Assembly (NCBI RefSeq): GCF_041381155.1
Contig: NC_091137.1
Span: 23,667,655 to 23,731,654 of the forward strand
DNA from: Argopecten irradians
Taxonomy: Eukaryota; Mollusca; Bivalvia; Pectinida; Pectinidae
Direction of reading: 5' to 3'
DNA: 64,000 nucleotides
A program made the position numbers and the translations under genes. Below are positions 3,701 to 51,477 of this stretch, piece by piece. The first letter of the stretch is position 1. Each line of letters starts with the position of its first letter. A model generated the notes under the pieces. That model made no database searches. It saw only the letters and a program-made list of their open reading frames with translations, and was not told the origin of the DNA.

Positions 3701-5122
3701 TTTATCATTATATCGCTATAGGTTTATAACAACAAGATTAAAAGGCAGTGTATTTGACACGCACATATGCAATATAAGTATGGCTTTTGCGATACGGTCG
3801 CTGTCACCGGATATAATTGACAAGCACCTGACGACAGAGGCCATGCCCCTGCCATATCATTGGCTACTAGACTTTATGTTTACGTGTCAGTCAATTATAA
3901 TTACCACCTGATTGGCGAGGCGTGTTCCTTATTGGTTACTGAATCTGTGCTCCATGCGATTATGCTTTCAATTTTATACTTAAATAATGTCATTTGAAAG
4001 CTTTATTATTTGTACTGATAATGGAAATAAAATGCAAATTTGCATGATTAAAAAACTCTGTTTATAAAGAAATTTACGAGTGTTCTGTACTAGAATTTAG
4101 AGAGGAGAATTTGGTTGCCGATTGAAATCGATTACACAGTATGTTACATTAATGCCATTCGTTGATGCAAAGAAAGTCATGAATATGTCATGAAAACACA
4201 AATAAATAAAGACATAATCAGTAAAGCCACTAAAAAGTTTGTACCAATTTTTTTATATCTATGTACCGAAAAATCTGGCGTATATACCGAAACGACCGCA
4301 AGACTTTTCGATACTCCTGTAATGACTTGTTACCGAAACGTCTAGAATTCCTCTGGCCCTACACCTGACATCTATCTGAATATGTCCTACAAGTCTGATG
4401 TCAGGGCCAGAGTATCTGAGTCTCGGGCTAATACCCTTCACAATGACTTCATAAACCTAAAATACTTTGAGAATAAGGCTTTAAGGATTTTATCTAAAAT
4501 ATGGCATTCATTACATATAATTATCTAACTGCTGCAGAAGTAAACACACCACTTTTTTCTTAGGTGCAGGTTTCTCCACGCATCCAAATACAAAAGCTTG
4601 AAGCCTGTAGGATCCATCAACTTGAAGAAGAATCATCTCTCTAAAATTACCCTCCTCTTCTGGTGACCATGTTATCGTCAACACCAAGGTGTCCTCTGCT
4701 TCCACTGTAAACTTTGTCTTGTCAATGTCGAAATGTTTTTTGAATGGAAATTTCTCCACTTTAACATCTTGTGGATATTCATGGGGATTTTTTATCAACA
4801 AACTTCGTCTTTTTGTTATTCCAGGTTTTGCTATCCCAAACCCAATTCTTGGGGGATTTGTAAAATGAGTTAATATTAGAGTTTCTACTTCATCTTCTTC
4901 ACTTTTTCTACGGGAAGCTGACCGTGTCTTCACCGTTTTCTCAACTGCAATCTCATATTTAGTACCTTTCCCCGTGTTCCCAAAATTATCAAACCATGAT
5001 TTCCTTCCACTTCGACGAGTTGGGTTGCTCGGTGTTGAAGTTGTGAAGGCGATGGTGCCGAAGTTTTCCGTTTCAGCACCTTGATGAGGAGAGAAAATAC
5101 CTGTCTGGTTGCTGATATCCAT
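1..5122 (-). CDS. ASPM: ASPM (abnormal spindle microcephaly-associated) homolog, 5' part, partial
   Basis: Spindle-pole and microtubule minus-end protein needed for spindle organisation. Two exons are visible: 4553-5122 (codons 1-190) and 1-720, which stays open to the window edge (240 codons). Residues about 81-183 form an ASH (ASPM-SPD2-Hydin) domain; the segments HFTNPPRIGFG, KNPHEYPQDVKVEKFPF and TWSPEEEGNFREM line up, from memory, with the human ASPM N-terminus, as does the lysine-rich end of the domain. The second exon encodes a basic, Ser/Thr/Pro-rich linker with repeated 'NTPDR' motifs, probably CDK-type phosphosites. The donor at 4552 and the acceptor at 721-723 are both phase 0. The calponin-homology and IQ parts would lie left of the window. 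The gene is divergent from the copper transporter at 5439. Confidence 0.85.
1094..1296. mobile_element. Palindromic MITE, family A copy 1
   Basis: Starts TTCATGTACCATGTGATACC and ends in the imperfect inverse (CAGGTATCATCATGTGGTGAA). A second copy lies at 6404-6599 with the same ends and a similar core. Non-coding, about 200 bp. Confidence 0.6.
2990..3010. repeat. (AT)n microsatellite
   Basis: About ten TA dinucleotides directly upstream of the hAT-like element. Confidence 0.8.
3030..3505. mobile_element. hAT-like non-autonomous element
   Basis: 476 bp. It begins TAGGGCTGTCACGGGTAC and ends GGGTACTCGTAACAGCCCTA, and the arms carry multiple GGGTACCCG-type motifs. Flanking 8-mers CAAAATAC and ATATATAC match at 5 of 8 positions, possibly a decayed 8-bp target duplication as expected for hAT. 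Nested in the element at 2664-4342. Confidence 0.65.
4553..5122 (-). CDS. ASPM: ASPM exon 1 (ASH domain)
   Basis: Start ATG at 5120-5122; 570 nt, exactly 190 codons. The frame stays open past the donor for 13 more codons, but homology stops at the KPAPKKK end. Two phase-0 donors are possible, at 4552 (GTGGTG) or 4549 (GTGTGT), differing by one codon. Confidence 0.85.
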
Positions 5123-5438
5123 CGTGTAAACGATGGAAACTGTTTCAGCCTATCTTTCTTTCAATGATGGTCACTCCATCATCGATGGAAAAATGTAAAC
5201 ATCGATGACCATCTTCCTTTGAATCCAAATTTCGAGCCGTTCCACGATCGACCAATCAAATTACGTTTTACAAAATTTAATTTACCGGAAGTCAGAAAGT
5301 TCTCGTTCTATATTTAGATGTCACATGACAATAAAATGGTTGACAGGAAATCTACAAGATTTTAAGAACTATTGTTAACACTTCATAACTAGTTTTATAA
5401 TTGTTTCACAGATATCAGCCGTGAAACTTCGCCTAGGG
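5123..5438. promoter_or_regulatory. Bidirectional ASPM / SLC31 promoter region
   Basis: Only about 316 bp separate the two start regions. A CCAAT box (5252-5256, ATTGG in ASPM's orientation) and a TTTGAA motif (5218-5223) are about 33 bp apart centre to centre. This resembles the CCAAT/CHR layout of mitotic gene promoters. The motifs are visible; their function is inferred. Confidence 0.4.
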
Positions 5439-15689: not shown

Positions 15690-16135
15690 GCTGTTATTGC
15701 CATAAAAACGCCAAATAAAGTCATGTCGTGAAATGTAGTTGGGCATAAATACGCCAAATAAAGTCATGTCGTGAAATGAAGTTGGGCATAAATACGCAAA
15801 GTAAAGTCATGACGTGAAATGTAGTTGGGCATAAAAACTTCAAATTAAGTCATGCCGTAATATGGGCATAAATACGCAAAATTAAGTCATGCCGTGAAAT
15901 GTAGTTGGGCATGAATACGTAAATTAAAGTCATGACGTGAGATGTAGTTGGGCATAAAAACGGAAAATTAAGTCATGCCGTAATATGGGTATAAATACGC
16001 AAAATTAAGTCATGCCGTGATATGTAGTTCGGCATAAATACGCAAAATTAAGTCATCGTGAAATGTAGATGGGCATAAAGACGCAAAATTAAGTCAACGT
16101 GAAAATGTAAATGGGTATAAATACGCAAATTTAAG
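15690..16135. repeat. 43-bp minisatellite with TTTCGCG-type leader, array 1
   Basis: About ten units of GGGCATAAATACGC...AAGTCATG...GTGAAATGTAGTT. The preceding 15585-15660 has TACTGTAAACCGAATAC and GATTTATTTTCTCG, the head of a common bivalve-type element. The same unit is reiterated at 27240-27540. Confidence 0.85.
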
Positions 16136-16420
16136 TCGACGCGACCACATGTTATTTTACAGTCTTACATTATCTTGCCAAAGTAATCTATACTTGTTTA
16201 CTCCGAGGTTAATTTGATGTTTACTGTGTAAACTTACTTATACATATTGGCGAATCCAAACATTAGTTTACTAGCACGTCTGGCATTGATGATATATATA
16301 ACGTCAGCACAGTCCCGATGACATGCAGAAATTACACAAGATTTTGTCGCATCATTAAAGACATAAAAAAGCAATAAAATAAGGTTACCTCTAAAATATG
16401 TTTACAGGAATTTCTGACGA

Positions 16421-16563
16421 CTAAATAAAAACAATTTGACGTTCCTCAATATTTTGTCTACATATGTGGCATATGCGTAGCGAACTGGCGCAAACCCGAC
16501 AGCACGTGTGTCCGCATGGGTGTAGCCTGGTGTCTCTGGGGTTCATCATACAAATGTTACACT
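16421..16563 (-). CDS. Claudin-RING exon 8 (C3HC4 RING finger, stop)
   Basis: Spacing C-x2-C-x11-C-x-H-x2-C-x2-C-x6-C-x2-C in CNICMMNPRDTRLHPCGH followed by TCCRVCASSLRICHICR. It ends EERQIVFI then TAG at 16421-16423. This resembles the C-terminal RINGs of IAP/MDM2/Neuralized-type ligases. The acceptor lies at 16564-16565. Confidence 0.85.
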
Positions 16564-19500
16564 CTGGAATATAATAAATACATAAATAAATATTGCATTA
16601 TGCACAAACAATAATTCATTCAAATAAGGACAATTACGTGGGCAAACGAGAGATAATACAAAATATTACACGTTACAAGGACATATAGCAATAGATTACA
16701 CTAAAGTCCTGTAAAAGATAAATACATATACAATAGATTCTATATTCAAATGATTGGCAAAGGATAGATAATACAAATATTACGCATTTAAAAAGAAACA
16801 GATTACTAATATTAAATGTTCACTAAAAAGACAAATAAAACAAATATAAATATATTGTACTGTTGCAATATTACGCCCTGAAACGATCGGGAATGTGTCT
16901 GGATGCGTATGCGTGTACGTGCAGACATGAACGTTTGCGAATTGGTACGTGTGCGTTTTTATGTACAGGATGGTGATAATAGCGAATGAATGCATGCATT
17001 TTATAAAGTTGTCAGAATGACTGCTTTCGTTTGAAATTAGCCTTAATGCTGATGTGTTCTTAAGACAACTAACTTAAATAGTATACAAACCGAAAGTAAA
17101 AACATCATCTGAAATTCGAAAAATTATGGGTGTATTGCGTTTTAATTCTATTATAACACTAGACAGAAATAACAAAAAGATTCAAATATCACAAACGACA
17201 AGATATAGCGATTCAAAAGTGAAAAGTATTGTAATCCTTTGATCTAATATGTATTCAAAATTCACGGTAAACATGCATAATATTAAGCATGCATACAATG
17301 GATAATATGGAAACAAACGCGAATGTACTCATGCTTAGTACATCTCATCAACTTATTTTAATAGCTCACACAGCATATGTACCACATTTACTCAATCGAG
17401 ATAATAATCTGATAAGTAATGAATATAATCAAATTTCTAAACAAGAATACGCTTTAGGAAAGTTAAAGAAATGAGGAAGAAGGAAGTGATGAATAAAACA
17501 AGAGGTATGTTAAAGCTATATCTTTAAATCAAATTAACGCAAATCAAACCTCATCAAGTCAGACTAAAACCAAACAATATCGACAGCAGGGACAAATCAT
17601 CTAGGACGGAAGATGTACTAATTCTAGCAAATTCGTCAGGAACAAACAGCATTGATATGCCATAGTCAGGTTGAGAGTGTACTGACGGGAGTGTGAATAA
17701 GAATGATAAAATGTTTAAACCTGGTTGGATCACGGGAGTTGTGGGTTCTGTTTGATTACACTCTGAAGAACAGAATTTTCAATGCATTTACAAAACAACA
17801 TTATCTTAGAATCATATCTTTCCTCGCCGATTTGTTTTCATTTCTGTAACTGACAACTATTCATGTGCTTATTTTCGGTTTTGAGGTGTAAGCAAAAAGT
17901 AGTTTTGTGATCCTTATTAATTCACCGGAAAAAAAGTGTTACAACCAACTAATTCCTTTCAAAGTACATAAAGAAAATGTCTACCTGGCTCGTCCACTTC
18001 TTCATTCACAGGAATTTGAGCCCCTCTACGAGATCTCCCTACAAATAAATCATGAAAACAACACATACTACGTGACACGAAACATTCGTTAAGTCGTTGT
18101 GTGTCAACCTTTGTGTTTGGATAATGTTCTTTTGAATTGCAGTTATGAATACATTAATGCTTAGCCAACATAATTTGAAAATCCAATGCTCTAAAATATT
18201 TCCCCTTTTGTTCATATTATGTATTTATTTAGCTATTGCCACACTTTCAGTAAGGAATCTCTACAATCTAATCCACTGATATTGGACTTTGATACTCTAT
18301 CTTGAAATTCGGTCATGTATGAATAGCTTTTTATTTCTCGATGAATTATTTTTAGAATGATATTATGCAGCATTTGCAAAACAATAATCTCTTTAGGTTT
18401 AGACTTATGTCTAAATTGGTTAACAGTGGAAGCTACATGCTTATTTTACATCATATTTTAGAAGCTATAAAATACTTTATTTAAAACTAAAATATCATTA
18501 TGTATTGATCACACACTACACTTAATGTAAATAATAGAGATAACTTATAAAACCTAGATAGTAAAATTCATTTTTTATGAGCACATCATACGATATAACT
18601 GAAGCACATTTATAGGTTCTCATGGAATTTATTACATCCGTAATATACAGTCGTTATTACAGAAACGGTGTAATGTGTAGGTGTGCGTACACATGTTAAC
18701 CATTCTTTATAAAATCAAGTCTTACTATGAAAAGTTAGCAGATACATTCGCTCTTTCAAGGATATCAAACTCTGCCGCAATGCTTGAACATATGTTGACG
18801 GTCTTTCTTCGTCTGCAAGAAAAGTGTGAAATAGTCGTTGGATAAGAGAATCGAAGGAAAGGCTAGTGTATATCTACTTATCTCTGGTGAAGTGACCACA
18901 TTACAGTAATAGAAATTTCACTACTAGATTTGGATTTCTAAATATAACAGATCAAATAGAAGACTCTACAAAAACTTCTGAATCCGGAATAACTCTAATT
19001 AATATGCAAATACATACTTCCTTTTCTTTACATATTATAAAAGTATCTTTTTAATGTGAGTAATACCACATGATGTTTTTAAAGCTATTTGCATTCCAAT
19101 ATAATTATTGCTAATAAGACTTGAGTTACGCTTTATAGAAACGAGCCTTTGCTGTTTAAGGTTTTCAATGTGCAGTCTATATGGATCATTTATGCACGTC
19201 TGCAACAATGACTATGGAAACATTTTTGTTTTAAATATTTCATGACATCTGTATAATTGTTACAATAACAATTCTATTTCATTACCGGAAATGTTCTTCA
19301 TTCAGATTCTAAAACATAAAAGTTGATTTTATGACATTGACCTGTATTCGTACCTATTCCGGACAATACAAACCTGTACGAATGGTTGATTCGTTTTCGT
19401 TTCCGATGCTGTTTTCCGATAGGACTTTTGCACACCCTAAAACAACGATTATTCTATAACTAAAATATTTCCGTATGTTCTGTTTGTAACGATAGCTATA

Positions 19501-22500
19501 TACTGCGAATCAATTATATTTAACAGGATATCTATTTTCGCGTTACTTAGAAATGTTATCAATAAGAAAATCATATCTCGTATAATTGGTTCCATAAAAT
19601 TGATTATAGACAACGGCGTATCAATTCAATTGAGATGGTTACTTATAAAAAAAAGTTTGCAAAATCACGTTTTCATCGATGTGTCGAAATTCTTTCCTTG
19701 ATGTAAAGTACAAAATACTTTGAATAGATGCAGCGTTACTTACTAAGTGATCTTATGCTAAACGTATTAATGCTTAATAAATTAGCCATTTACTAATTAT
19801 AGATAAGTCTTGACAAGTTAACAACTATATTATCCCGAATGTAAGTATGGAGAACACTTACGTTTTATTACGAATTCCATGATGAATAATACAATCATGA
19901 CAAAAACAACAACACTCAAGATGAAAGCATCCTCAAAATGGGAATGTACGCCTGGCTCCTTTTTCACGTTGACAACATACATAGCAATGTTTGTCACCAG
20001 CAAAATACCTTAAAGCAGTCAAATTAAAAGAAAGTATCGCTGATATATTAATGTCTTCATTCATGATATAAAATGGCACCACATGTTTGCCTTTGGATTG
20101 AAAAAAATACAAATTAAGTTGGCATTTTCCACACTCTGTTTCACTTATTAACATAGTATAATGCACAAAATGTAAATATGAATGTTATTCACTTTTATTT
20201 TTTCCAGTTATGGTCACCTGCAATAAGAAATACCTTGGGTACGCATGGTCACAAATGACAAATGGTTATTTTTTTTATTATTCACTGTTTTTGTAATATT
20301 TATGATAATACAATATATTGTGCGGAAAGTCATTGGCTTGGTTATCTTCATGCTAGAATAGAACGTACCTGTAGCTATTTGAGTGATCAAAAGAGGGGCT
20401 CGAAACGTTCGAAAATAAAGGTGAAGAGTACAGAAAATCACTGCAAGCAAACAGGTGGCAAAAGCCATCATAGTGACATCACGACAGGTGAGAAACCAGC
20501 CTGTAAATGTGAGGAAATAAAATACAAACTAAACTATACATATAAACGAAGGACAAAGCTGCATATAAAGGACACCAGCTTACTAAAATGTCCTATATAT
20601 ACAGGTGTCCTCTATATAGAAGTTAAGTATATATTACGACTGATGGTTCTGTTATCTATAGCAGGTTTGACTGTAGTTAAGTAACTTAACTTTCACGGAT
20701 GTCGCGACTTTGACTTAAAAAAGAAATACTTTTAACGAAATCAAGTCCCATGTACACGGTATGAGTGTCTGTGGTGATTGGGGTATGTTTTGGGAGATAG
20801 CGGTACACTTCATGCTGTGTCCCATTGTGCTAGCGAGATCTGTCAACGTTATAGCGCTACCTTACAGATACTTACCTGGTATATCTGCGTAAAAGTATGT
20901 AATACCACTGCAGCAGGTGAGTGAGTCCTGCTGACGACACTGGGACCACATTCCCATCCGTACGATCACGTTTGAGTAGTGTGTACTGACCACGCTGAAC
21001 CACAAAGAACTAAAAATCGCAACACTAAACAACACAAACATCAGGAGATGTAGAAGCCAGGTGACCACGTAACGTGCGCGATTTTCCTCTGGTACTGCAT
21101 CATATACTTGACAAATAATTTTCGGAAGACCAATCCCTATTATAAAAATGAATGTCTTCCCTAAGTTCAACAATTTTCCATCGCACACAATAACAGGAGG
21201 AATGCCAAACAGCACTACAGTTATAATCATTACATAAAAAGCACCTGAATCATTTTCCGACACTATCTGGTAGCCACCTGTATTGATACTACCATATAAT
21301 TTATTTTGATGCAGCAATGTCGCCGACAGTACCAAAGTCCCTGCAAGAAAAATGAATAAAATACGTTTTAATTATTGAATAGCCGTGTAATTAAACCATT
21401 CATAAATTAAGCGGCGAATGTATTTTAAAACACTTATTTCGTCTTTTCACATTACAGAATTAGCCCCTTGCGGGTAGGTATCGATTGTTACGTTACTATT
21501 TTGTGAGCGTAATTCACGTCGTTTTCTCGGGAAAGTATGACGTTAATCCCGCACACACATGGCGTAACAATCAATACCTACTTACAAGAACAGATAACTC
21601 TGTAATATAAACATACATTTAATTTATAGAGTTACAGATGATGACATATGCTTAGATAAATAAACACAACAGAATTACCTATCTATACGTTCGATGGTAT
21701 GGTCATTAATGTATCGTAACTAAGTTGTTGATGTACTTATTACAGAGAAAACGTAGCACCATACATCCTCGGGGGAGACAGCAGGAGATCGTAACAGAAA
21801 ACTTCCATACTTTCTTCATGAAATCATTGAAAAGTCATAGAGTTGGCATCGAAACAATTTTCTTCAAGGTACAAGGCCCTCATTAGAGCCTTTTCTAGAA
21901 TGGACGAAGAGTTTTGACAATAATTGGAGGAATTGCATCAGGGTCACTTCAAAAGGGAGTCCGACCAATGCAGTTTTGAGAGAAGACATCAAACATGTTG
22001 AACTTGGAGAGATATCTACACGATATAAACACGTTTGACATATTAAGCAAACATATTATCGTGAATAGAAAAAAAAAATGGAAAAAAATGATAACAAATA
22101 AAGATATTATCGAAAATTAACTTTGTTCTTTTACTTACAGTTAACGACCATAACGAAAGACATTGCAACACATCCCATGTTGATACATCTCTCATCAGCG
22201 TCGTCATCCCGTGAGCATTGCTTAGCTGTACAAATCACTAGGAGTAGGACTGAAATTCCTAAAGCAACGCCGAGTAAATTCCTCACCACATGAAGAGTGT
22301 GTATGGCCTGAGGGTCTGAAGTAAAACACAGAAACAAATGGACATGTATTTTGGTATATTTTACTATTAACCTTTTTTGGATACAATATTTAGCCAATGT
22401 CAGTTTTGAAACACTTTTTTTTTCGCTCAAAGTCCATCACAGTAAATTGCTATAAATTATTTTATTCTTAGATATTACCTTTGAAGTCATGGACAAGGAG

Positions 22501-23348
22501 CAAACAAATCATCATATTATTTTGTCTATATGGCTGGTTATTTACACGGGTAATCATTTTCGCGATTTGAACAAAAATGAGAGTTAAGGCTAAAGCTATG
22601 CAGCCAAAAATTTGGAGCACTACATGAATATTATATTATGAATATTGTAAAAATGATAGAATTGAATTTTAGCAGGCTATAATTTTCACGATCTAGCTTT
22701 AAAGGTTTATATTTCTCAATATTTCGCGAAAAATATCACCCCCGCGAAAATAGCTAGATATACTTTATATGTTAGAATGTATAGAAAACTTACAAATTTC
22801 ACCATAAAATGTAATTTACATGAACACTAAATGCACCGAGGACATACAATTCGTGGATGGTCGACGGAGCGATATAATGGAATTATATCAAACTACATTC
22901 AAACCTGTAATTTTAAGCTTTTGAGGTGATGAAGTTATTTGTTACGTTACGATACATCAGCATTAAGTCTTACTTAAAACGAAAGTAGTTACTCTGATAA
23001 CTTAACATTTCCAATCAGCAATGCATGTACACATTCACACATTCATCCGAAAGCTCGCTCTTGCTTTACTTTTTGAGATATATCCCTATAAAATCGATTT
23101 CTCTCAATGATGTCTGACAAACCGTCATGTGAATAGCCTTACTCACCCGTCTCCAGTCCGAGGCCTCCGCTGCACGATACACTGTCGTTGTACAGATATT
23201 GATGCCATAGCCCCTGGTGTCCGTTATATGTTATATTATCAGAACTATACACTGTATAAGACTTCCAAGTTGGGGACGAAAATCCGGCTATAAGAAGTAT
23301 AACCCCTACTGTGAATAAGTTTGAACGTATATAATTGAGGACCGACAT
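16421..23348 (-). CDS. Double claudin-like membrane protein with C-terminal RING finger (predicted E3 ligase)
   Basis: Eight exons: 23147-23348, 22139-22315, 20876-21340, 20369-20500, 19862-20008, 19374-19436, 18726-18812, 16421-16563. All seven introns are phase 1; 1416 nt give 471 residues and one stop. Module 1 (about 11-179): TM1, an ectoloop with claudin-style GLW (46-48) and C59, TM2 80-98, TM3 115-136, TM4 159-179. Module 2 (about 219-373): TM1', an ectoloop with GMW (256-258), C261 and CC269-270, TM2' 292-311, TM3' 317-338, TM4' 353-373. A charged linker leads to a C3HC4 RING: C426, C429, C441, H443, C446, C449, C456, C459. Eight spans put both termini and the RING in the cytosol. Substrate unknown. 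The claudin kinship rests on motif and topology, not on an alignment. Confidence 0.75.
16566..18725 (-). other. Intron 7 of the claudin-RING gene
   Basis: AT-rich, about 2.2 kb. Short plus-strand frames at 17289 and 17907 have no support. I see no further exon, though a small one cannot be excluded. Confidence 0.5.
18726..18812 (-). CDS. Claudin-RING exon 7 (linker before the RING)
   Basis: Acceptor CTTTTCTTGCAG, donor GTAAGA at 18725. Encodes DEERPSTYVQALRQSLISLK, likely helical, then ERMYLLTFH. Joining to the RING exon forms the Lys just before C426. An earlier donor-like GTATCT would put a stop in the RING frame. Confidence 0.65.
19374..19436 (-). CDS. Claudin-RING exon 6 (linker)
   Basis: 63-nt exon, acceptor TTGTTTTAG, donor GTTTGT. 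Encodes CAKVLSENSIGNENESTIRT, a polar cytosolic linker. Small, but bounded by good sites in the right phase. Confidence 0.6.
19862..20008 (-). CDS. Claudin-RING exon 5 (TM3', TM4')
   Basis: Acceptor TGACTGCTTTAAG, donor GTAAGT. Encodes GILLVTNIAMYVVNVKKEPG, then FILSVVVFVMIVLFIMEFVI. Phase fits both neighbours. Confidence 0.72.
20369..20500 (-). CDS. Claudin-RING exon 4 (TM2')
   Basis: Acceptor CACATTTACAG, donor GTACGT. Encodes GWFLTCRDVTMMAFATCLL and a TM span, then RTFRAPLLITQIAT. A plus-strand 140-codon frame here is antisense noise. Confidence 0.75.
20876..21340 (-). CDS. Claudin-RING exon 3 (TM3-TM4 and start of module 2)
   Basis: Largest exon, 465 nt, acceptor TTTCTTGCAG, donor GTAAGT. 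It completes module 1, adds a hydrophobic stretch (TFIFIIGIGLPKII) that may dip into the membrane, then TM1' and the GMW-C-CC ectoloop. Confidence 0.8.
21451..21607. mobile_element. MITE family C, copy 2
   Basis: Same ends (ATTACAGAATTAGC and CTCTGTAAT) and the same GCGGGTAGGTATCGATTGTTACG arm mirrored on the right. Lies in an intron of the claudin-RING gene, between exons 2 and 3. Confidence 0.75.
22139..22315 (-). CDS. Claudin-RING exon 2 (TM2, start of TM3)
   Basis: Acceptor TTACTTCAG and donor GTAAGT. Encodes DPQAIHTLHVVRNLLGVALG, TM2, an acidic loop (SRDDDADER), then the start of TM3. Confidence 0.75.
22540..22760. repeat. TTTCGCG-type interspersed element fragment
   Basis: CATTTTCGCGATTTGAAC near one end and ATTTCGCGAAAAATATC plus CCCGCGAAAATAGC near the other, in inverted arrangement. 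Intron 1 of the claudin-RING gene. Confidence 0.5.
23147..23348 (-). CDS. Claudin-RING exon 1 (start, TM1, first ectoloop)
   Basis: ATG at 23346-23348; a GTG in frame just upstream is not used. Encodes MSVLNYIRSN, TM1, then the W-GLW-C ectoloop with an NIT glycosylation site. Donor GTGAGT at 23146. Confidence 0.75.
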
Positions 23349-24589
23349 ATTCACAATGTCTGTCAGCTATACATTCCTAGCTTTCAGTTTCGATTTTCGC
23401 TCCCAGTGAGTAAGCAGAAGTTGTTTACTGAAAAAGATATGTATAACTCGGTCAGGTGTTCGCTATAACATTACGCAGCTACAGAGCTCCCGGCATGGGT
23501 TCAGTATTCAAAAGCAGCTAAATATCATTCCACAACATTATTTTGAATTTGATAACTTGAAGAAAAGTGTAGTAGTTACAACGAAAATAGCACATTGGTT
23601 TTATTTTCAAGCTGGTGATGCTGTTTAGCAACCAGTTTGTTATAACATCAGAAATTCACGCATCTAGCTACATAATACATAAATACTTGACATAAATATA
23701 TTAACATACCCATCCAGAAAATATTTTCTTTTGACTTCGGGTTGTCTAATGACCCACCAGTTTTCCTTCTATTTTGTATGATCCTTATCTTACTTTGCAT
23801 TTGAATCCTTTCTGCTGTTTCCATTGTTTGTTAAACTGATGAAATGATTTGTAGCATGGCCCACAAGCAGACGATATTTAATAACCATGGCACATATATG
23901 CAACATCTCACAAACGTGTGCTACACATATATATATCTCACATTGCACGTAATACTACACACAATATCCATTTATGGCTAATCAGGATTACATTCATGGA
24001 AATGGCTGGTACCGTGTCTTTTTCTGTTACTCAACATGTACACTTAACAATGGAGATATGTGTAAATGTTCTGGTAGGAAACCAGTGGCACTTTGGTTTT
24101 AACACAAATATAACTTCTTTGAGTGTTTTGATGGTTCTAAATATCGTGTTAACAATAACATGGTTTTGTGATTAAAATACACACAAAAACATAAACAGTA
24201 CAGACAATATTAATCAATCAACATCGCTGATTATCTTAAATTCATATTACTCTAAAACCAGAGAAGCTAAATAGCTGTTGTAATTATAGAATATCCAATT
24301 CAACAGACCTATTTATAATCACAATATAATCGTCTATATAAATGCATTTTCCTACCCCTGGCAATGGAAAGGGAGGTAATATATCACTAGTTACCGTAGT
24401 CTGGTGCTCACACGATTATCTTTATTGTCAAATAGGATTACATGACTATGTCAGGGGCTACACATGTGTGTACAATGAGGTGTGGTGATAAATGCAGTAT
24501 ACCCATTTGGAACAGCTAGGAGGAGAGATAATCGTATATTTACCTTGCTGACATGATAAGATTAGCCAACATGACACGAATATCATACC

Positions 24590-25630: not shown

Positions 25631-25654
25631 ACATTTTGATACCAAAACTTAAAT

Positions 25655-26299
25655 ATGACTGCTGCAGTAGTAGGAAGTACTGATGTGGATGTGAAGGAGT
25701 TTGGATACGATGTTAATGTAGCTGAGGTTCCCCAGGCCAAATTGATGTATTATCTAGATAGTATATGCTACGCTCTCAACCTTGATAAGTCAGAGTCGGG
25801 GGTACGGAAGTTGAGAGACCACAGAAAATACAGAAGTCTCACCAGTGATGATATTGATGAACTTTTGATACTCTGCTCAATATTCTCACCAGACGCTTTG
25901 CTGGGCAAATGCCTCTTTATGGATGATGAGATGTGTGGAGACAGTTTAAACAAGTTTTACGAACTTAACGCCGTATCGAAAAGACTGTTAGTCACAGAAG
26001 AGATCGTCATTGGTGGGCAAACTCGAAAGGTGCTGAAGATCCTTTGCTTCAGAAAAATATGGTTGGAATGCTTTTACATAGAACCTTTGAGTCAATTTAA
26101 AGAAAGGCTTGAACGTATTGCTGGTCGTATTTCCGGGCGACAACGCCAAGGTCCAGGGCAACAAAGAAGTATGCAATCGGCCGGTCAAGGCCGACCACGT
26201 CCACAGACACCGAGATCGACACCAAGACCGGCCCCTACCCCTGCTAACTCACCGCCTGCTCCTGCCAGCAACAAAGAAAGTGGATGTTTGCTAATGTAA
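25655..26299 (+). CDS. Intronless gene, 214-residue protein with C-terminal CaaX box
   Basis: Single uninterrupted frame, ATG at 25655 to TAA at 26297-26299. Residues about 15-155 look globular and mostly helical (KLMYYLDSICYALNLDKSES, TSDDIDELLILCSIFSPDAL, LNKFYELNAVSKRLLVTEEI). Residues about 156-209 are disordered, rich in Arg/Gln/Gly then Pro/Thr/Ser. The end is CLLM, a CaaX prenylation motif, implying membrane attachment. No membrane spans or signal peptide. I do not recognise a characterised family. Absence of introns in an intron-rich region suggests retrocopy origin or a naturally intronless family. Confidence 0.7.
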   Translation: MTAAVVGSTDVDVKEFGYDVNVAEVPQAKLMYYLDSICYALNLDKSESGVRKLRDHRKYRSLTSDDIDELLILCSIFSPDALLGKCLFMDDEMCGDSLNKFYELNAVSKRLLVTEEIVIGGQTRKVLKILCFRKIWLECFYIEPLSQFKERLERIAGRISGRQRQGPGQQRSMQSAGQGRPRPQTPRSTPRPAPTPANSPPAPASNKESGCLLM

Positions 26300-31853: not shown

Positions 31854-32358
31854 CCTACTGTTTTGTTTCGGTTAAAAATTCTACTGCATGAAGCCATCAA
31901 ATTGAAAAGAAATATAAAGACTGCGTCTTTCTGTGCCAAAAATCGATTAAAAAAAATAAGCACATCTGTAATATGGAAAATGTCATCCAACCATTTCAGT
32001 ACTTGCAGTACTTTGATTCCACTTGTATCTATCATCCTTGTAGACGTTACAGGAGTCACTATAAAAACCTATTAATTATCATAATAAAAACAACTATTAA
32101 TTGCTATATTTAGAGGTATTTTAAAACAGAAAGCGAAACTCGTATTGTAATCCACATAGTAATAATACACCTTGGGTTGAGAGATCTGGAGGCATTCTGA
32201 TGACCTAGACAATAATCACTATGATATTAACTAAAACGTATTCCGGCGGTATCGCTTTAAGTGTTACTTTTTACTCTCGTGAAGGACGTTTCTCCTTAAC
32301 TGTTGTGTGTTTAAATATGACATTCTTTACATTATGCACATATACAACGTGGCTCATC

Positions 32359-33424
32359 ATGGCCCCGCTCAGACGACATTGTATAGTCCTCCTTTGTCTG
32401 AATTTGTTTTCCTCTATAAATTGCAACCAAGACGAATCTAAGGATCCACGTGATGATGCCGACAGTGTCATGAAAAACTGGCTTGATGTGTACGAAAATA
32501 AGTTTAAATTGATGGAAACCGAAATTGGAAGCACCTTCAAAACTATTGAAAATATGATTAGACGAGGACTTGGCTTAGAAAGCAATGATGGTGACATCAA
32601 GAATGGGAGTAGACGAATGGACAATTTAACGAAGGAGGTTTTGCAGTTGGCGGAGGAAATCCAATACCTGAGGATTAATGCTACTAAGTTGTCGGCAGTC
32701 CATAATGACTTCGAGGAACAAAGCCTTTCCAGCTTAGACAACGGGGAGTTAGAACAGCACCAACAGATGTCAGCTTTTTCTGATACTCTAAATGTGGTTT
32801 CCATCAAATTAGTATGTTTCAATCAAACATTGTCTAATTTGTCCGATGTATTGAACGGAACACCCATTAGTACAAACATACCTACTACTGTTGTTACAAC
32901 AAGCAACACCTTACCGAGTACAAAACCGATAACAACGACCACGCCTACTACAACGACCACGACAACAACAACAACAACGCGTACCACAACGACCACGCCC
33001 ACTACAACGCCAACTACAACGACCACGCCCACTACAACGACAACGCCAACTACAACGACAACGCCCACTACAACGACAACGCCAACTACAACGACCACAC
33101 CTACAACAACAACCACGCCTACAACAACGCCCACTACAACGACTACGCCTACAACAACGCCCACAACAACGACCACACCTACAACAACGACCACGCCTAC
33201 AACAACGACCACTACAACGACCACGCCTACAACAACGCCCACAACAACGACCACGCCTACAACAACGACCACGCCTACAACAACGACCACGCCTACAACA
33301 ACGACCACGCCTACAACAACAACCACGCCCACTACAACAACCACGCCTACTATCACGACCACGCCTACTACAACAGTTATTCCAAGCAGTACCATTATCA
33401 GTGATACAACCACAGCAGAAACAG
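32359..33424 (+). CDS. SRCR/mucin gene exon 1 (signal peptide, coiled coil, mucin tract)
   Basis: MAPLRRHCIVLLCLNLFSSI then a leader with NWLDVYENKFKLMETEIG. The mucin tract is made of 18-nt units, mostly ACN codons plus CCN (TTTPTT). Donor ACAG|GTAACC, phase 1. Long antisense frames rich in Val/Gly or Cys/Arg are mirror artefacts. Confidence 0.8.
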
Positions 33425-36400
33425 GTAACCCAATGCGGGGTTTTGAAATCCCAACACGACGTGGGTAAAGTACAATTTATCGTCAATTAGTCGTAACCCC
33501 GTGAATATGACGTAAGAAAACTTATGCTAAATGATAATGTCACGATCACCGGAAGGTGTGACTAATCGACAATATATTGTACTTTACCCACGTCGTTTTT
33601 GGAAATCGCCGTATTAATGATCGGCATAATGAAATGGACCAGAATGTGCCTTCTACATTTTCCCTTTGATGATATTGATATTTTCTTTGATGAATTCTAT
33701 ATAAGATGATTTATAACCTAATTTAGAATTCCAATCCTAAACACTACATATTATTTTTCGATCTGAACTGAAAATATGCCATGCATGAATATTATTCACA
33801 TAAACAATATGACTAATTTTGATACTCGTAGTGTATATTCACATTATGATATTATATTGTATTCAATTACTTTTAATTACACTAACCATGCATATTAAAC
33901 GCATGTAAAGACTTATTTGTTCGAAATATTTTCCATAGAATTTCAGTTATATTATCACATTTGATATTCACATCTGATGACGGATGTAATTACAGATTTC
34001 AAATATTTTTGAAATTACGTTTTATTGAAGATGAAACAAATACGAAAACTGCTATAATATACAACGAGTAACGTTATAATGACAACACGTTAGAAAACAA
34101 ATAATATTTAAATATGATGAGTTCCCGTATATTTGTACTTAATCTTCGTTCTCCGGAGACATGTTTTTTACTTATTGTTTATATCATGAGCTCTGTGTTT
34201 ATACAAAATAGCTGGTTAATAACTAATTACTTATTGCGGGTTTGAAAAAAAATTGTTTGTAAATTCAAAGTACTTTATGTTGTTGGTGGGTTAAAGTCCG
34301 ATACAATCCAGATGAATGAAAGAAAAGAAGTTAATCTGAAAAAATCAGAATTGAGCGCAACAATGCGGAAACCCATATTTAAATTTCGGTGTGACAAAAT
34401 CAAACAATTAAAAAATGAGAACAAATAGAATAATGGAATCGTCCTCCTGATTTGATAGTTTAAAGTAAAACAACCTTAAAAGGTCTTAATGCATTTCATC
34501 TGAGTTTCCACTTGTATCATTCCTGTACACTTTATACGCGCCCCTGTAAAAATATAAATTGCATCTGAAATGAGCGTGTGTACTCGCTTGTATAATTTCG
34601 TGTAAATATGTTTGCTTATATAATAGTGATGCCTATTGCAGTAATTGACCTTTCACGGGTAAATCGCTTACTGTTCTCATATGACAATAATGAAATAATA
34701 ATATTCAACCGCATTAAAGATTTTTTTTTTAATTTTAATTAATTCTATATAGACTCACTTAAAACAATCATTAAAGCTCTGGGGTTCCTTGTCAGCATCT
34801 ATCAGTTGAAAACACATTTGAGGTCAAATGTCATTCACGCGTGGACTGTGGCCTCAACAATGCGAAATTAACGGATTTCAGGTATTCATCTTTGTTCATT
34901 ACAAACATAATTATCACTGCATTTTTAAATAACTAGTTTCGTAATAAGGATATAAACACTACTATTAGACAATGTGTTCGCTCAGACGAAATTCTGTAGT
35001 CTTTCTTAGTCTGATTTTGTTTTCCTGTGTCAATTGCAACCAAGATGAATCTAACGATACACGTGATGATGCCGATACTCTTATGAAAAACTGGCTTGAT
35101 GTGTACGAAATCAAGTTCAAATTAATGGAAACTGCAATTGGAAGCGCCTTCATAATTATTGAAAATATGATTAGACGAAGGCTTGGTTTAGAAAGCGATG
35201 AAGCTGACGTCAAGAACGACAGTAGACGAATGGACAATCGATCGAAGGAGGTTTTGCCGTTGGCGGAGGAAGTCCAATAATAGGGTTAATGCTACTAAGT
35301 TGTCGGCAGTCCGTGACGACTTCGAGGAACAAAGCCTTTCCAGCTTAGACAACGGGGAGTTAGAACAGCACAAACAGATGTCAGCTTTTTCTGATACTCA
35401 AAATGTGGTTTCCATCAAATTAGTATGTTTCAATCAAACATTGTCTAATTTGTTCGATGTATTGAACGGTACACCCAAAAGTACGGTCATACCCTGTAGT
35501 GCGGTCACATTAGATAGTACAAACATACATACTACTGTTGATGCAACAAGCAAAACCTAACCGAATACAATACCTATTACAACGACCATGTCCACTACAA
35601 CGACCACGCCTACTACAAGGACCACACCTACTACAACGATATTACCAACTACAACAATCACACCTACTACAACAACCACTCCTACTTCATCGACCACGCC
35701 TACAACGACCACGCCCACTACAACAACCACGACTACTACAACGACCACGTCCACTACAACCACCACGCCCACTACAACGAACATGCCAACAACAACGACC
35801 ACATCTACTACAACGACCACGCCCACTACAACGAACATCCTACAACAACGACCACATCTACTACAACGACCACATCTACTACAACGACCACGCCCACTAC
35901 AACGAACATGCCTACAACAACAACCACATCTAATACAACGAACATGCCTACAACAACGACCACATCTACTACAACGACCACGCCCACTACAACGACCACG
36001 CCCACTACAACGACCACGCCCACTACAACGAACATGCCTACAACAACGACCACATCTACTACAACGACCACGCCCACTACAACGACCACGCCCACTACAA
36101 CGACCACGCCCACTACAACGACCACGCCCACTACAACGAACATGCCAACAACAACAACCACATCTACTACCACTACAACGAACATGCCTACAACAACGAC
36201 CACATCTACTACAACGACCACGCCCACTACAACGACCACGCCTACTACAACGACCACGCCCACTACAACGACCACGCCCACTACAACGAACATGCCTACA
36301 ACAACAACCATATCTACTACAACGACCACGCCCACTACAACGACCACGCCCACTACAACGAACATGCCTACAACAACGACCACATCTAATACAACGAACA

Positions 36401-39400
36401 TGCCTACAACAACGACTACATCTACTACACCGACCACGCCCACTACAACGAACATGCCTACAACAACGACCACATCTACTACATCGAACATGCCTACAAC
36501 AACGACCACATCTACTACATCGAACATGCCTACAACAACGACCACATCTACTACAACGACCACGTCCACTATAACGACCACGCCCACTACAACGAACATG
36601 CTTACAACAACGACCACATCTACTACAACGACCACGCCCACTACAACGAACATGCCTACAACAACGACCACATCTACTACAACGACCACGTCCACTACAA
36701 CGACCACGCCCACTACATCGAACATGTCTACAACAACGACCACATCTACTACAGCGACCACGCCCACTACAACGAACATGCCTACAACAACGACCACATC
36801 TAATACAACGACCACTCCTATTACATCGACCACGCCTACAACGACCACTCCCACTATAAGGACCATGCCTACAACAACGACCACGCCTTCAACAACGACC
36901 ACACCCACTATAACAACTACGCCCATTACAACGACCACTCACAGTTCAACGGTCATACCAAGTACTACCATAACAAGTAATATGACCAGAGCAAAAACAG
37001 GTATCATAGTAAATGATATTTATTATGGAACAGTGGATAATGTTAATTAATGCATTTAAATACGTGGGCAATATGAAAAAGACCAGAAATCGCTTTCTTC
37101 TAATTGTTTTGCATATTGTGTAAATGTTATCATTAATTAATTTGATATAAAAACAATTTCATATTGATATTGATTAATTAATGGGGCCGACGAGTGCTAA
37201 CATATTATTACAGGCCCTCCACCTCTGGGTTGCAAGTTCGAATTCCATATGGGGTACTGACCGCTGGTTGGTGGTTTTTCCGGCATTCCTTCACTAACAA
37301 CCCTGGCAATTCCTCAAATGATTTGGGCTGTTGTCATTAAACTTACAAAATTTAAAAGATTAATTTTATCAACGATATGATTTGATTTCTAAATAATCTA
37401 GAACTCCGTTGTTGTGCATCATAAATTGGTCGCGATGCGGTAGATTAGCCTTTGGCTTAGCATGTTATCCTTGAATTTACAAATAAAGAAATAAAGCAGA
37501 TTCTTTGTCAGTCTGAATTTTATATTAATAAAGATTAATAAAGATGAGTTCCCGCATATTTGTTCTTAATTTTCGTTCTCCGGAATAATATTTTATTTTT
37601 TAATTTGCAGCATGGATATGTTAATTTTTGTTAACACCCCATTTATAAATGATCGTATAGTATGAATACAAAGTACCTGATTAATAATTTGAAAGATACA
37701 TATTTGTTTGTAAATTCGAGGTACTTGATGGGTTTTGTTATTAACGCAAAGGAGAAGGTACGTTAAGACTCGAATATGGCCTCAAAATTAATTATCCAGT
37801 AAAGAACAAATTATTTTGCCATATAACAGCTGAATACATTTGCTTACACATTAGATCTCGAAAATATCCCGCATGTGCCAATTATGTTTACTATGACGTC
37901 ATCAACATGCAGTTTCCCGCCATTTTTCACAAAAATCCTTAAAAAATTATACTTTTTGAGTGGTTTTCTCTAAAAATGAATGTGGCCGCCTTCGTGGAGC
38001 AGAAAGAGATTTTCACACGTTGTGTATCGTGTATTTACACATATCCATGCAAAATATATAGTTGTTCCAAGGTGCCGGCCAAATCCATTTCAAGCCTTTT
38101 CTAACCTAAAGATGATGAATTTCAAGCAAAATTTGGTGAGAAGAGGAAAATCATCAATTTGATGACGTCAAAGGTGGGACACATCGTGTACATGGTTATA
38201 AAAATATGTTTTGATGAATGGCAAGTATGAGAGTATTTATTGATATGATATTGATGGGGATCAGAGTTAATATTTTTCGGCCTGAAAAATTAAGGCCAAA
38301 TACTGGTCCTATCATATCTACTCCTTTTGCACAATCCAGAGAGAAATAAAACAAAAAAGAAAGTTAATTTGCGAAATATTTAGAATTATTCTCAGTACGG
38401 AAGACAAAACACCAGATTCCCTACAGTTAGTATTCATACAATTAATTATTTTGAAATTAACATGATAAACTTTATCTTTGAAGCGTATTAACTATGACAA
38501 ACATGTGGATTTATTAAGATGGTATTTATAATTAAGGGCCTGGGAATTTGAAGTGTCAATTATCAGGAAGAAAATAATACAGTTTACATTTTGTACAAAT
38601 ACATTATCACACATCACACGTGTTCCGGTCACAAAACTCTACACACTTGACATAGTGCTTAGCACTTAAAACTTGAATTGCCTTCTCGACTATAGTCTCT
38701 TTTCTATATATTCGCATGATGCAAACAATAAAAATTATATTTTTATATAATTGTTAACTCTAAACCGATTTATTTTCGCGTCGACTTAATTTCGTATTTT
38801 CACACATAGCGGTGTTTTTCACAATTTAATTTCGTGATCAAGACCTATTTAGTTATACATATAACCGTATTTAAAACATTTTAAGGGCGAATTATTTTCG
38901 CCATTTGTCTTTGCCGACGAAAAACGTGAAACTTAATTACACGCAAAAATACGTGGAACCACAGTATAAACTAAATTTGCTTATCTATCAATTATTACAA
39001 CTTATGTAAGCATTAAAGTTATCAGCTAAATATCCTTTGTAAAAGAATGTCAAAACTCAAAGATAGTTCCGTTTTTGCCCTTTGTATGGTTTAGTATCGC
39101 CACAACTTATGAACACATTTGTTCATTGTTATTCTGAAAGCTAGTATATAGACTTCTTTGAAAAAGAAACCTCTACGGATTCCCTTTGATAGGAAATATA
39201 TGCAAATGGTGCCGTTGTTAACTTCCAATACACCATAATTAACAGGTATATGCAAATTGTAGCAAACTTATCATGAGCTTTGTTTTTAGTTTGATTATGT
39301 ATAATTTGTTTCTAAATAATTTATCCTTGGATCCAACTTATTGCACACAAACTAATTTCTGCTTATTATTTTCATCTCTAAATACCTTGATTTAAACGTT

Positions 39401-42400
39401 CGGTTAGAAGGAGGGACTAGTGAACTTTGTTTTTAGTTCAATGATATATAACTTATTTCTGAGTAAATGTGTCATCAGTTGTAACTAATTCATCGCACAA
39501 AAGCTAAATACAACAGTATACTTAGTATTTTTATTTCTAAATACTCCTGACCCTTGACCTTTTAACATGCAGGAGACGTCCGATTGGTGGGAGGTCCGTC
39601 TAGGTCGGAGGGCAGGCTAGAGATCTACTACCATGGACAATGGAGTGCTGTTTGTGACGACGATTGGTTTTCCGAAACTAACACCGTGGTCGTATGTAAT
39701 CAGCTAGGCTACAGGTATATCATATGTTATCATGTCAATTAACGTATACTGTAAATGTGTCAAATTTCACGAGGAGAAAACTTTGCTATTTTCTCTTATA
39801 TAGTTGTTCGAGGGAAGAAATTTTCGCATCTTTCTATTGTATTTGCGGGACTTTTATGTACAAGTAGAAATAAACTTGACAATGATATAGCGAAAAGAAA
39901 TCCTTTCTAAAAATATCAACAATGCAATAGGCTTATTACCATATATATGAGTGTTACCATGTCAAATTGGTAATGGTTTGACGCCATGACAATCAGGTTA
40001 CAGATATAATATAAGCGCATTGATTTCATGTAAAAAAATAGTACCAAACTGATTTGGATTTTAAACATATTTTCCACAACAGATTTAATTATAAAGATTA
40101 ATTTAAATAGATGTGTTTATGTTATGTGAATATAACATAAAAAATCTAGGTGTACTCTCACCATGAAATGCTTTGTAGTTTATCAAGAGTATAATCCGAT
40201 GTTTGTGTTATATCTCCATATCAAAATAAATTTCGAGTTAGTCCTTAAATACATGATCGGAAAGTCCATTATATTAAGTATAAATGTAGAAGAGAAATTT
40301 CAATACAAATCGTCGTCCAAATAAGTATTTTTTATTTTTACTCTACTTGCGGTATATGTAGAAATGTGATTAGTTGTGCTATGTTACGATCTTTCCAATT
40401 ATTGATCCTCGAAGGGGAGGACGGCATCCATCCAGTTACTACGGCGACAGTGACGTTTCTTACTGGATAGACGATGTGATATGTATTGGGACAGAGGAAC
40501 GTCTCAGTGACTGCAGGTTTAGCGAGAGGGACTATGAAACGTGTTCTGACAGAGCAAACGGACAGGTGGGAGTACGATGTGATACGGACACCGGGCAGTC
40601 CGGCATGGAAGGTAGTTTTCTAGTATGTCAAGATAAGTTATGTAAATTCATCTATGCATAGTATAACGAGTGTGTTGAAGAACGTTTCAGATGATTTCAT
40701 TTAAGTTCGTCTTCGGGTACAATAGTATATACCATATACTATTTTTTTTTTAAAGTTTAATGAAGTATACGTCCACTTTACACTCACAGCTTGTATCAAT
40801 ACATTTCCTATGGCTCAACAGTTGATAAATTGATAAATTATAAAATTTTGAAAACAATTATTTTCTGGATGGACACTATTACACATACATGTAATTATTT
40901 AATGAATTAATAAAATAAACAAAGGTATTTTTGGCATGAAATAACTAAAGAATCACACTAAAAAGTAATAATTTTAGTTAGTAAGATCATACCACACAAG
41001 TTCCTTTGAATACACTTATGAAGTGTCGGTTATGTTGTGTAGGGGAGATACGACTGTTGGGCGGACCGACTGACCTAGAGGGACGATTGGAGATATATCA
41101 TGATGGGCAGTGGGGCGTGGTGTGTGACAACAACTGGAACTATACTACTGGTGGGGAAGTCGTTTGTCGTCAGCTCGGCTTCGGGTATGTAGAACTGACT
41201 GATCAAAAGTTTCAGTATGTATATTTAAGGAATCCCTTAACTTAAAATTCTCCATGGGAAAACATTACAGATTTTAAGGAAGTCTCCTTGAATTAAGATT
41301 TTTTCCTTAACTTTTGTAATGCTTTGCTATGAAGAAATTTATGAAATTTTCGTGAAATTGGGCTCTGATTGATAGATGATTAATGTTGAAGAAAAATCTG
41401 AACAGTACATCAGCCGTAATATATCTTATATGGATGTAGAGGCCGACAACCCCTGCATCCATTACCTAACTATGAAACTCATATTTATGTGTTTGCTATT
41501 TCACTTTAAATAGTTTTAATCTGTCATATGGCTGATTGCATACAAATCCTTTCTTTTAGTTTATAATTTCTAATTTTATAAATATCGTAAATACATGACT
41601 AAGCAGAACAGTTAAGTATTTTTTTATATGTTTATTTATCGTTTGGAGAAAGACCTCATGGCCTGTGAGGTGACCAATATAATTTTAGTCCATTTCCCAT
41701 CATCAGTAAAAGTTGATTATTTTATTAATATACCACCCGGTCACTTTCCATTATGTCATTGCGAAAGTGAGGCTACCAGTGTAGCATTTGTAAAACCATA
41801 ACAAATATCGACATTAGATGGTTTTGACCGGAAACATGGTAACAATGTTAATGGTCCATTGCCTTTCCGATACAACAAATAATAAAATGTTCCTAAGAAA
41901 CAATAATAAATTAAGAAAAGTTGTATCGATAGCCTAAGCTGAGGTTAAAGCCCACAGAAATAAAGTTTACCAGTGTAATATATGTTAACAGTGAAGATTC
42001 ATCTCGTTATTTTGCCGTCTGAAGCAGTGATAGCCAAATAACGCGCGGTAATTAGGACGGCAGTGGGATCTTATGAATAATGACATAAATGGCGTCGTCT
42101 TGATTGTATACGTTAGAAACTAGAAATACGTGAGACCTTTATGTCGACAGAGGCGTAATATGGCCCGATTCAGATACCTGGTATGGCACAAGTTACAGCA
42201 AGTATTGGATAACCGACGTTGTTTGTGACGGAACGGAGAAGAGCTTGACCGATTGTAAATATAGTGAGAGTTACAGCCAACCCTGTTCAATCCGGAGTAA
42301 CTGGCAGGTGTCAATCAAGTGTACAAAGAAAGAAATGACAACCACAACAATGAGCACACCTACTTCTCCAGAACCATCTAAAGGTAATGCAAAAAATCAC

Positions 42401-50787: not shown

Positions 50788-50927
50788 GAGGGCTTTCCTG
50801 GCCTGTGTCAGCGTACTTAGGTCTAGTTTAAAGCGTCCCGTCGACTGCTTCCAGCTTCATACCGTTATCAAACGGTCTCGGAGGAGGGAGAGCGTAGTAC
50901 ATTAGCAGCTGCCTGCACCTTACGGCA

Positions 50928-51477
50928 ATGGCAGGGCTATGTTTTGGTGTTTTACGGTGGGTTGTTTTAGTGACATGTATATGGGGTGCAATCTCGAAAC
51001 CTAGAAGCATTGCTAATGAAAAGCCACAGAAAGATGCGGTCACAGCAAACTGGTTTAGAATGTTTAATGCTAAATTCAGGCTTTTGGAACGAAAGATAGA
51101 TTTGGATTTTAAGATCTTAGGCCAAACTCTTAGAGAAGAATTAAAGGGAAGAATAGGTGGCGGAAATATACCCCGTCCACCGATACCGAATACTGATGGA
51201 ATTGAGGAGGCGATATCTCAGCTAAAGTTTGAAATTCAAACTCTTCAAATGGATATGAAGCAAATGGCATCGAATCAACTAAGGTTTGAAGCGAACTTTA
51301 TGTCAGCTTTGGAAAATAGTACCGCTACATTACAGAACAAATTCAACGATGTATCCGAGGTTCTGACGGCCGTGTCGGACAACGTTGACAGTTTGAACAA
51401 TTCCATTGTGGCCTTGACTGAGACAATCGACAACCTTTCCATGGAACCCAAGGTCACCACACCAGCACCAACACCAA
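50928..51477 (+). CDS. First exon of another secreted coiled-coil leader gene (SRCR/mucin family paralog), partial
   Basis: MAGLCFGVLRWVVLVTCIWG is a signal peptide. The following TANWFRMFNAKFRLLERKID aligns with KNWLDVYENKFKLMETEIG of the gene at 32359. A long coiled coil with N-glycosylation sites follows, ending VTTPAPTPS and donor GTAAGT at 51478, phase 1, exactly like its paralog. It has no Thr/Pro tract. I see no SRCR, FN3 or cysteine exon in the remaining 12.5 kb, so intron 1 is very long or the gene is incomplete. Confidence 0.7.

Follow-up and report, generated by a model that had tools for sequence, protein, structure and literature searches.

A predicted Argopecten irradians membrane protein with two claudin-like modules and a C-terminal RING finger

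Introduction

Claudins are the closest described relatives of the membrane part of the protein presented here, and inhibitor of apoptosis proteins (IAPs) are among the closest relatives of its RING finger. The isoforms of human CLDN18 differ mainly in their first 69 residues, which are encoded by exon 1, as described in two reports (PMC11464258, PMC12384651). The RING of clam and mammalian IAPs is encoded in the last exon, according to excerpts of PMC7831173. Claudins are themselves reported to be ubiquitylated by the RING-PDZ ligases LNX1p80 and PDZRN3, which causes their removal from junctions (PMC7765395, excerpts). Here, we describe a candidate gene of Argopecten irradians located on the minus strand of contig NC_091137.1, at positions 23348-16421 of a 64,000-nucleotide stretch (contig positions 23,667,655 to 23,731,654), which is referred to as the window. 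We propose that it is a single animal gene whose eight-span protein consists of a tandem pair of four-span modules of the claudin superfamily, with much divergence in the second, followed by a short linker in the cytosol and, at the C-terminus, a RING of the IAP/MYLIP type. The protein would most likely act as a membrane-embedded RING E3. As a whole, we give this reading of the sequence an even chance of being correct.

Module 1 of the predicted protein shares with claudins a tryptophan, a G-L-W ectoloop, and a sequence match to claudin-18. The first intron of the gene is positioned within approximately six residues of the end of CLDN18 exon 1, as the latter is given in PMC11464258 and PMC12384651. 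The protein differs from claudins in that it has two modules per chain, lacks the first ectoloop cysteine in module 1, and is strongly diverged in module 2. Claudin-1, -2, and -4 end in a C-terminal YV, as stated in excerpts of PMC7765395, whereas the protein described here ends in a RING. The RINGs of BIRC2, BIRC3, BIRC7, and MYLIP are its nearest relatives by sequence among PDB chains. The gene has the last-exon RING layout of IAPs, as far as that layout is described in the excerpts, and differs from them in the membrane domain in front of the RING and in having no BIR domain listed among its matches.

LNX1p80 and PDZRN3 are not known to span the membrane, and the membrane parts of RNF43/ZNRF3, MARCH, and the adapters of MGRN1 are not known to be claudin-like. 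In the source excerpts, membrane attachment is likewise joined to a RING that acts on membrane cargo in RNF43/ZNRF3, in MARCH, and, by way of membrane adapters, in MGRN1. LNX1p80 and PDZRN3 reach claudins through their PDZ domains, whereas here the claudin-like domain belongs to the predicted ligase itself; the outcome of LNX1p80 action on claudins is comparable to the endocytosis of partners that we propose below (PMC7765395, excerpts). The titles and abstract beginnings of the matches listed from the open-access literature describe no claudin-RING or double-claudin protein. One of these papers, PMC9411157, contains the phrase "double claudin", and the beginning of its abstract deals with claudin meshworks. 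The terms claudin, tetraspan, and PMP22 are absent from the text of the review PMC4021871.

Results

Gene structure

The candidate gene consists of nine exons that form one open frame of 489 amino acids, starting with an ATG at position 23348. A first-pass annotation of the window had joined eight exons into a 471-amino-acid frame that runs from the same ATG to a stop codon ending at 16421. That chain is open as drawn, all of its introns are in phase 1, as had been claimed, and each of them has GT-AG borders; the acceptors at 20008, 19436, 18812, and 16563 were placed correctly. What the chain had overlooked is a 54-nucleotide phase-1 exon at 18038-17985, the inclusion of which gives the nine-exon model. 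The exons are listed below with their splice-site scores, which were calculated using a set of splice-site weights. TM stands for transmembrane span.

Exon 1, 23147-23348, minus strand: start ATG, TM1, and ectoloop 1 of module 1 (W28, G46-L47-W48, single C59), with sequons N38 and N54; donor GTGAGT 11.9.
Exon 2, 22139-22315, minus strand: module 1 TM2 with the cytosolic loop that follows it, and the first half of TM3; acceptor 8.0, donor 6.4.
Exon 3, 20876-21340, minus strand, 465 nucleotides: remainder of module 1 TM3, ectoloop 2, and TM4, followed by a linker and by TM1 and ectoloop 1 of module 2 (G256-M257-W258, C261, C269/C270); acceptor 12.6, donor 12.8.
Exon 4, 20369-20500, minus strand: module 2 TM2 and initial part of TM3; acceptor 9.8, donor 10.7.
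Exon 5, 19862-20008, minus strand: remainder of module 2 TM3, ectoloop 2, and TM4; acceptor 5.4, donor 7.2.
Exon 6, 19374-19436, minus strand: cytosolic linker; acceptor 5.9, donor 5.9.
Exon 7, 18726-18812, minus strand: cytosolic linker; acceptor 8.7, donor 4.3.
Exon 8, 17985-18038, minus strand: 54 nucleotides, phase 1 on both sides, cytosolic linker that is basic and then acidic; acceptor 5.8, donor 6.2.
Exon 9 (last), 16421-16563, minus strand: whole C3HC4 RING with all eight zinc ligands, and stop codon; acceptor 7.4.
Doubtful optional exon outside the model, 17721-17762, minus strand: 42 nucleotides, open and in phase; acceptor 7.1, donor 0.2.

The optional 42-nucleotide exon at 17762-17721 was excluded because of its poor donor. 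The coding content of exon 1 amounts to 67 residues and one base. Exon 3 is situated within an open frame of 169 amino acids and contains the junction of the two modules; their union is therefore independent of any guessed splice. Read-through beyond the exon 5 donor reaches a stop after 10 residues.

Module 1

The best of the two matches that module 1 obtained in a PDB search up to an expectation value (E) of 10 was claudin-18 (E 0.0059), with module residues 13-116 aligned to residues 15-119 of the claudin-18 chain; the other match was LytE (E 4.9). A claudin profile was constructed from four solved claudins (18, 19, 3, and 4), each represented by a fragment, and covers approximately the first two spans only. 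Module 1 scored 18.6 bits with this profile, and none of 2000 block shuffles scored as high (1977 yielded a score). The hhalign comparison with claudins resulted in an E of 6.3e-05 and a probability of 65, values that stand without a shuffle control.

The ectoloop of module 1 includes W28 and G46-L47-W48, and its C59 corresponds to the second ectoloop cysteine of claudins. Sequons N38, N54, and N156 are located in predicted outer loops of the module; the two that lie outside the loops are N126, within TM3, and N389, within the tail. The sequence match to claudins is present yet weak, and supports the assignment of module 1 as claudin-like.

Module 2

The ectoloop of module 2 keeps the pattern G-M-W-x2-C-x7-C, built of G256-M257-W258, C261, and C269/C270, which comprises the G-x-W signature together with two cysteines. 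A single BLASTP comparison aligned module 2 to module 1 over this signature with an E of 0.001, and a similarity as good as that between the modules arose in 5 of 2000 cases when the sequence was shuffled in blocks and in 4 of 2000 when it was shuffled fully. In the hhalign comparison of the two modules, W, C, R, and CT are aligned in order (E 0.008), with a probability of only 4.9. The earlier claim that both halves contain a G-x-W ectoloop followed by a cysteine is borne out: a motif composed after both halves had been viewed (G-x-W, x2, C/Y/F, 6-9 residues, C, 14-22 residues, R) was found in 3 of 20000 full shuffles for half 1, and in 7 of the same number for half 2. The arginine of the motif is in the claudin register in half 2 only; His 73 occupies this position in half 1, and the arginine is located six residues further.

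Both modules are interrupted by an intron shortly before TM2, 20 and 24 residues past the tryptophan of G-x-W, and by another one inside TM3. Because every intron of the gene is in phase 1, the phase shared by the introns of the modules adds little to the comparison; their positions do add to it. In claudin genes, introns in phase 1 are generally found behind ectoloop 1 and within TM3. Judging from the similarity to module 1, the motif, and the intron positions, module 2 most likely arose from module 1 by an old duplication and is read here as a diverged module of the claudin superfamily, short of a proven member of the claudin family.

RING finger

The C-terminus of the protein is formed by a complete C3HC4 RING, as the first-pass annotation had stated. 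Its eight zinc ligands are C444, C447, C459, H461, C464, C467, C474, and C477 in the 489-residue numbering. The tail alone matches Pfam zf-C3HC4_3 with an E of 2.5e-11, and the match within the whole protein reaches 39.3 bits, compared to a cut-off of 27. The nearest RINGs in the PDB are those of BIRC3, BIRC7, BIRC2, and MYLIP, the best of 58 sequences matched up to E 0.1. No BIR domain, by which a member of the IAP family would be recognized, is among the Pfam matches of the model listed up to E 10.

The RING retains an isoleucine two positions after the first cysteine and an arginine directly after the last cysteine. The chain ends one residue past a phenylalanine, to which an aromatic residue is aligned in the tails of BIRC7 and MYLIP. 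Such aromatic C-terminal tails serve the formation of RING dimers, as in IAPs, and the conserved isoleucine, arginine, and aromatic tail residue have roles in the ligase function of RINGs. No ATG precedes the RING within the open frame of its exon; the RING therefore requires splicing to an upstream exon.

Connection of the RING exon to the membrane modules

The eight acceptors of the model score 5.4-12.6, and the eight donors 4.3-12.8. The content of guanine plus cytosine (G+C) in eight of the nine exons, 0.39-0.52, is above that of all eight introns (0.285-0.371). The value for exon 5, 0.361, is higher than those of its own two introns and lower than that of intron 3.

The interval that separates exon 5 from the RING exon contains four open phase-1 candidate exons at splice-score thresholds of at least 3 and 3, which were chosen low enough to let the linker exons of the model pass. 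Three of the four candidates are the model's own linker exons, and the fourth is an extended form of exon 6. At the same thresholds, 100 first-order resamples of the region yielded 1.42 candidates on average and 8 at most. Under stricter thresholds, the observed and chance numbers were 2 and 0.18 (5 and 5), 1 and 0.1 (4 and 6), and 0 and 0.03 (6 and 6). Based on these observed and resampled counts, the linker bridge to the RING is better than chance and short of proof.

Membrane topology

The hydropathy of the protein fits eight spans. With both ends of the eight-span arrangement inside, the RING would be positioned in the cytosol. The linker that follows exon 5 is hydrophilic. An additional moderately hydrophobic stretch is located between the modules at residues 189-208. 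Its membrane score, calculated as a simple sum on a membrane scale, is 7.3, compared to values of -3.0 to 4.4 across the eight spans and of 7.7 in a segment of the second ectoloop. Because of this score, the arrangement with eight spans is a preference that falls short of proof.

Further searches and surroundings of the gene

Four pieces of the protein were compared to the rest of the window by tblastn, and all matches outside the gene had an E of at least 1.4, giving no sign of paralogues there. One scan of IMG/VR for relatives of exon 3 produced 10 pattern matches and no relative. The model has one weak match, far under the cut-off, in the prokaryote-oriented NCBIfam. The promoter scan of positions 23300-23700 employed a bacterial model and is uninformative for this gene.

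Downstream of the RING exon, at a distance of a few hundred bases, a 43-base unit is repeated in tandem at 15701-16137 (10.5 copies, 82% matches). The gene is adjoined on the opposite strand by an open frame of 219 amino acids (25640-26299, plus strand), for which Pfam gave no match up to E 0.1. Three plus-strand frames, 32209-33468, 34969-35280, and 50898-51548, share a stretch that is similar by eye, clear in the first two and weak in the third. The first of them continues into long threonine-rich repeats, and the second is followed by a threonine-rich frame at 35542-37050. The Pfam matches of frames 32209-33468 and 50898-51548 are all below cut-off and mostly to coiled-coil families. An SRCR domain (42134-42448, plus strand, E 1.5e-06) and a fibronectin type III domain (43132-43485, plus strand, E 6.5e-10) are encoded by frames approximately 0.7 kb apart. 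The minus-strand frame 4511-5149 encodes an ASH (ASPM-SPD-2-Hydin) domain (E 6.5e-22), a type that occurs in centrosome and cilium proteins.

Discussion

The suggestion of the first-pass annotation that the protein is a membrane ubiquitin ligase follows soundly from its anatomy; the action at junctions that the annotation also considered is conjectural. We predict the topology, ligase activity, partners, and outcome as follows. The claudin-like modules would seat the protein in the membrane and bind adjacent tetraspan or junction proteins laterally. The RING, probably dimeric through its C-terminal tail, would recruit an E2. The partners, or the ligase itself, would then be ubiquitylated, which would lead to their endocytosis.

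Several observations weigh against this proposal. Of the two claudin-like halves in the first-pass annotation, half 1 is upheld by the match to claudin-18 and by the profile shuffles, whereas half 2 is not recovered by direct comparison: the claudin profile gives it -7.2 bits, a score equaled or exceeded by 1789 of 2000 shuffles, Pfam yields no claudin match, and even with a profile of claudins and module 1 combined, 48 of 2000 shuffles score as well. It is conceivable, if unlikely, that only half 1 belongs to the claudin superfamily, and that half 2 is a four-span unit of some other kind, or else an unrelated membrane domain, in which G-M-W-C-C arose by convergence. The lack of any PDB match of module 2 up to E 10 and its hhalign comparison with four claudins (E 0.05, probability 1) agree with such an origin, which is opposed by the BLASTP similarity to half 1 over the signature, matched by so few block shuffles, and by the intron positions; the ordered hhalign alignment of the two halves speaks in the same direction, but with its low probability. 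Module 1 has weaknesses of its own. Its Pfam match to Claudin_2 (E 0.034) reaches 14.4 bits and is below the cut-off of 29.1, and a COX1 match, also below cut-off, has a better E of 0.0044; the latter probably arises from common hydrophobic helices. Tyr 51 occupies the position of the first ectoloop cysteine, leaving the ectoloop of module 1 without the cysteine pair. The stretch at residues 189-208 could act as a ninth hydrophobic segment and upset the topology. The AlphaFold predictions have a mean confidence score (pLDDT) of 52.8 for exon 3, which encodes part of each module, and 52.0 for the RING exon, too poor for a fold search.

The last pair of RING ligands is embedded in CHIC, with a histidine where the BIRC and MYLIP RINGs carry proline. 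This departure from the CPIC or CPVC of the aligned relatives would fit a RING that serves as a dimerization or binding tail of a junction or signaling tetraspan, with no role as a ligase. We find this rather unlikely, given that all eight zinc ligands are present, that the isoleucine after the first cysteine and the arginine after the last one are kept, and that the tail alignment with BIRC7 and MYLIP extends to a last aromatic residue. One transcript across all nine exons is a prediction from genomic DNA, which counts against the proposal. Two genes may have been fused by the reading: one encoding a protein with two claudin-like modules, which would end within or behind exons 5-7, and another encoding the RING, with its earlier exons within 19374-16564. 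The last intron is the longest of the gene (1421 nucleotides), the linker exons are all symmetric in phase 1, so that the frame by itself demands none of them, and chance sequence supplies such candidates as well. We grant two separate genes some weight because gene-model errors are reported to yield false domain fusions (PMC4967905, excerpts). However, the exon 5 donor and the RING acceptor are both in phase 1, and the gap between them is bridged by three exons with fair splice scores that encode a hydrophilic linker; altogether, although no search aimed at a separate first exon of a RING gene was made, two separate genes appear quite improbable.

Returning to a single gene for a membrane-embedded RING E3, we speculate that a claudin module was duplicated within the gene, and that an IAP-type RING exon was captured through matching phase-1 introns, giving rise to a family of self-contained ubiquitin ligases of junction membranes. 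This history has, in our estimation, slightly less than an even chance of being right. If true, the gene would be a clear instance of domain capture through introns of matching phase, as would fit the last-exon RING pattern of bivalve IAPs described in excerpts of PMC7831173. The protein would unite a junction-type membrane domain and a signal for protein removal within one molecule, and a claudin-like protein with its own RING would provide a direct route to the remodeling of junctions or the clearing of membrane partners.

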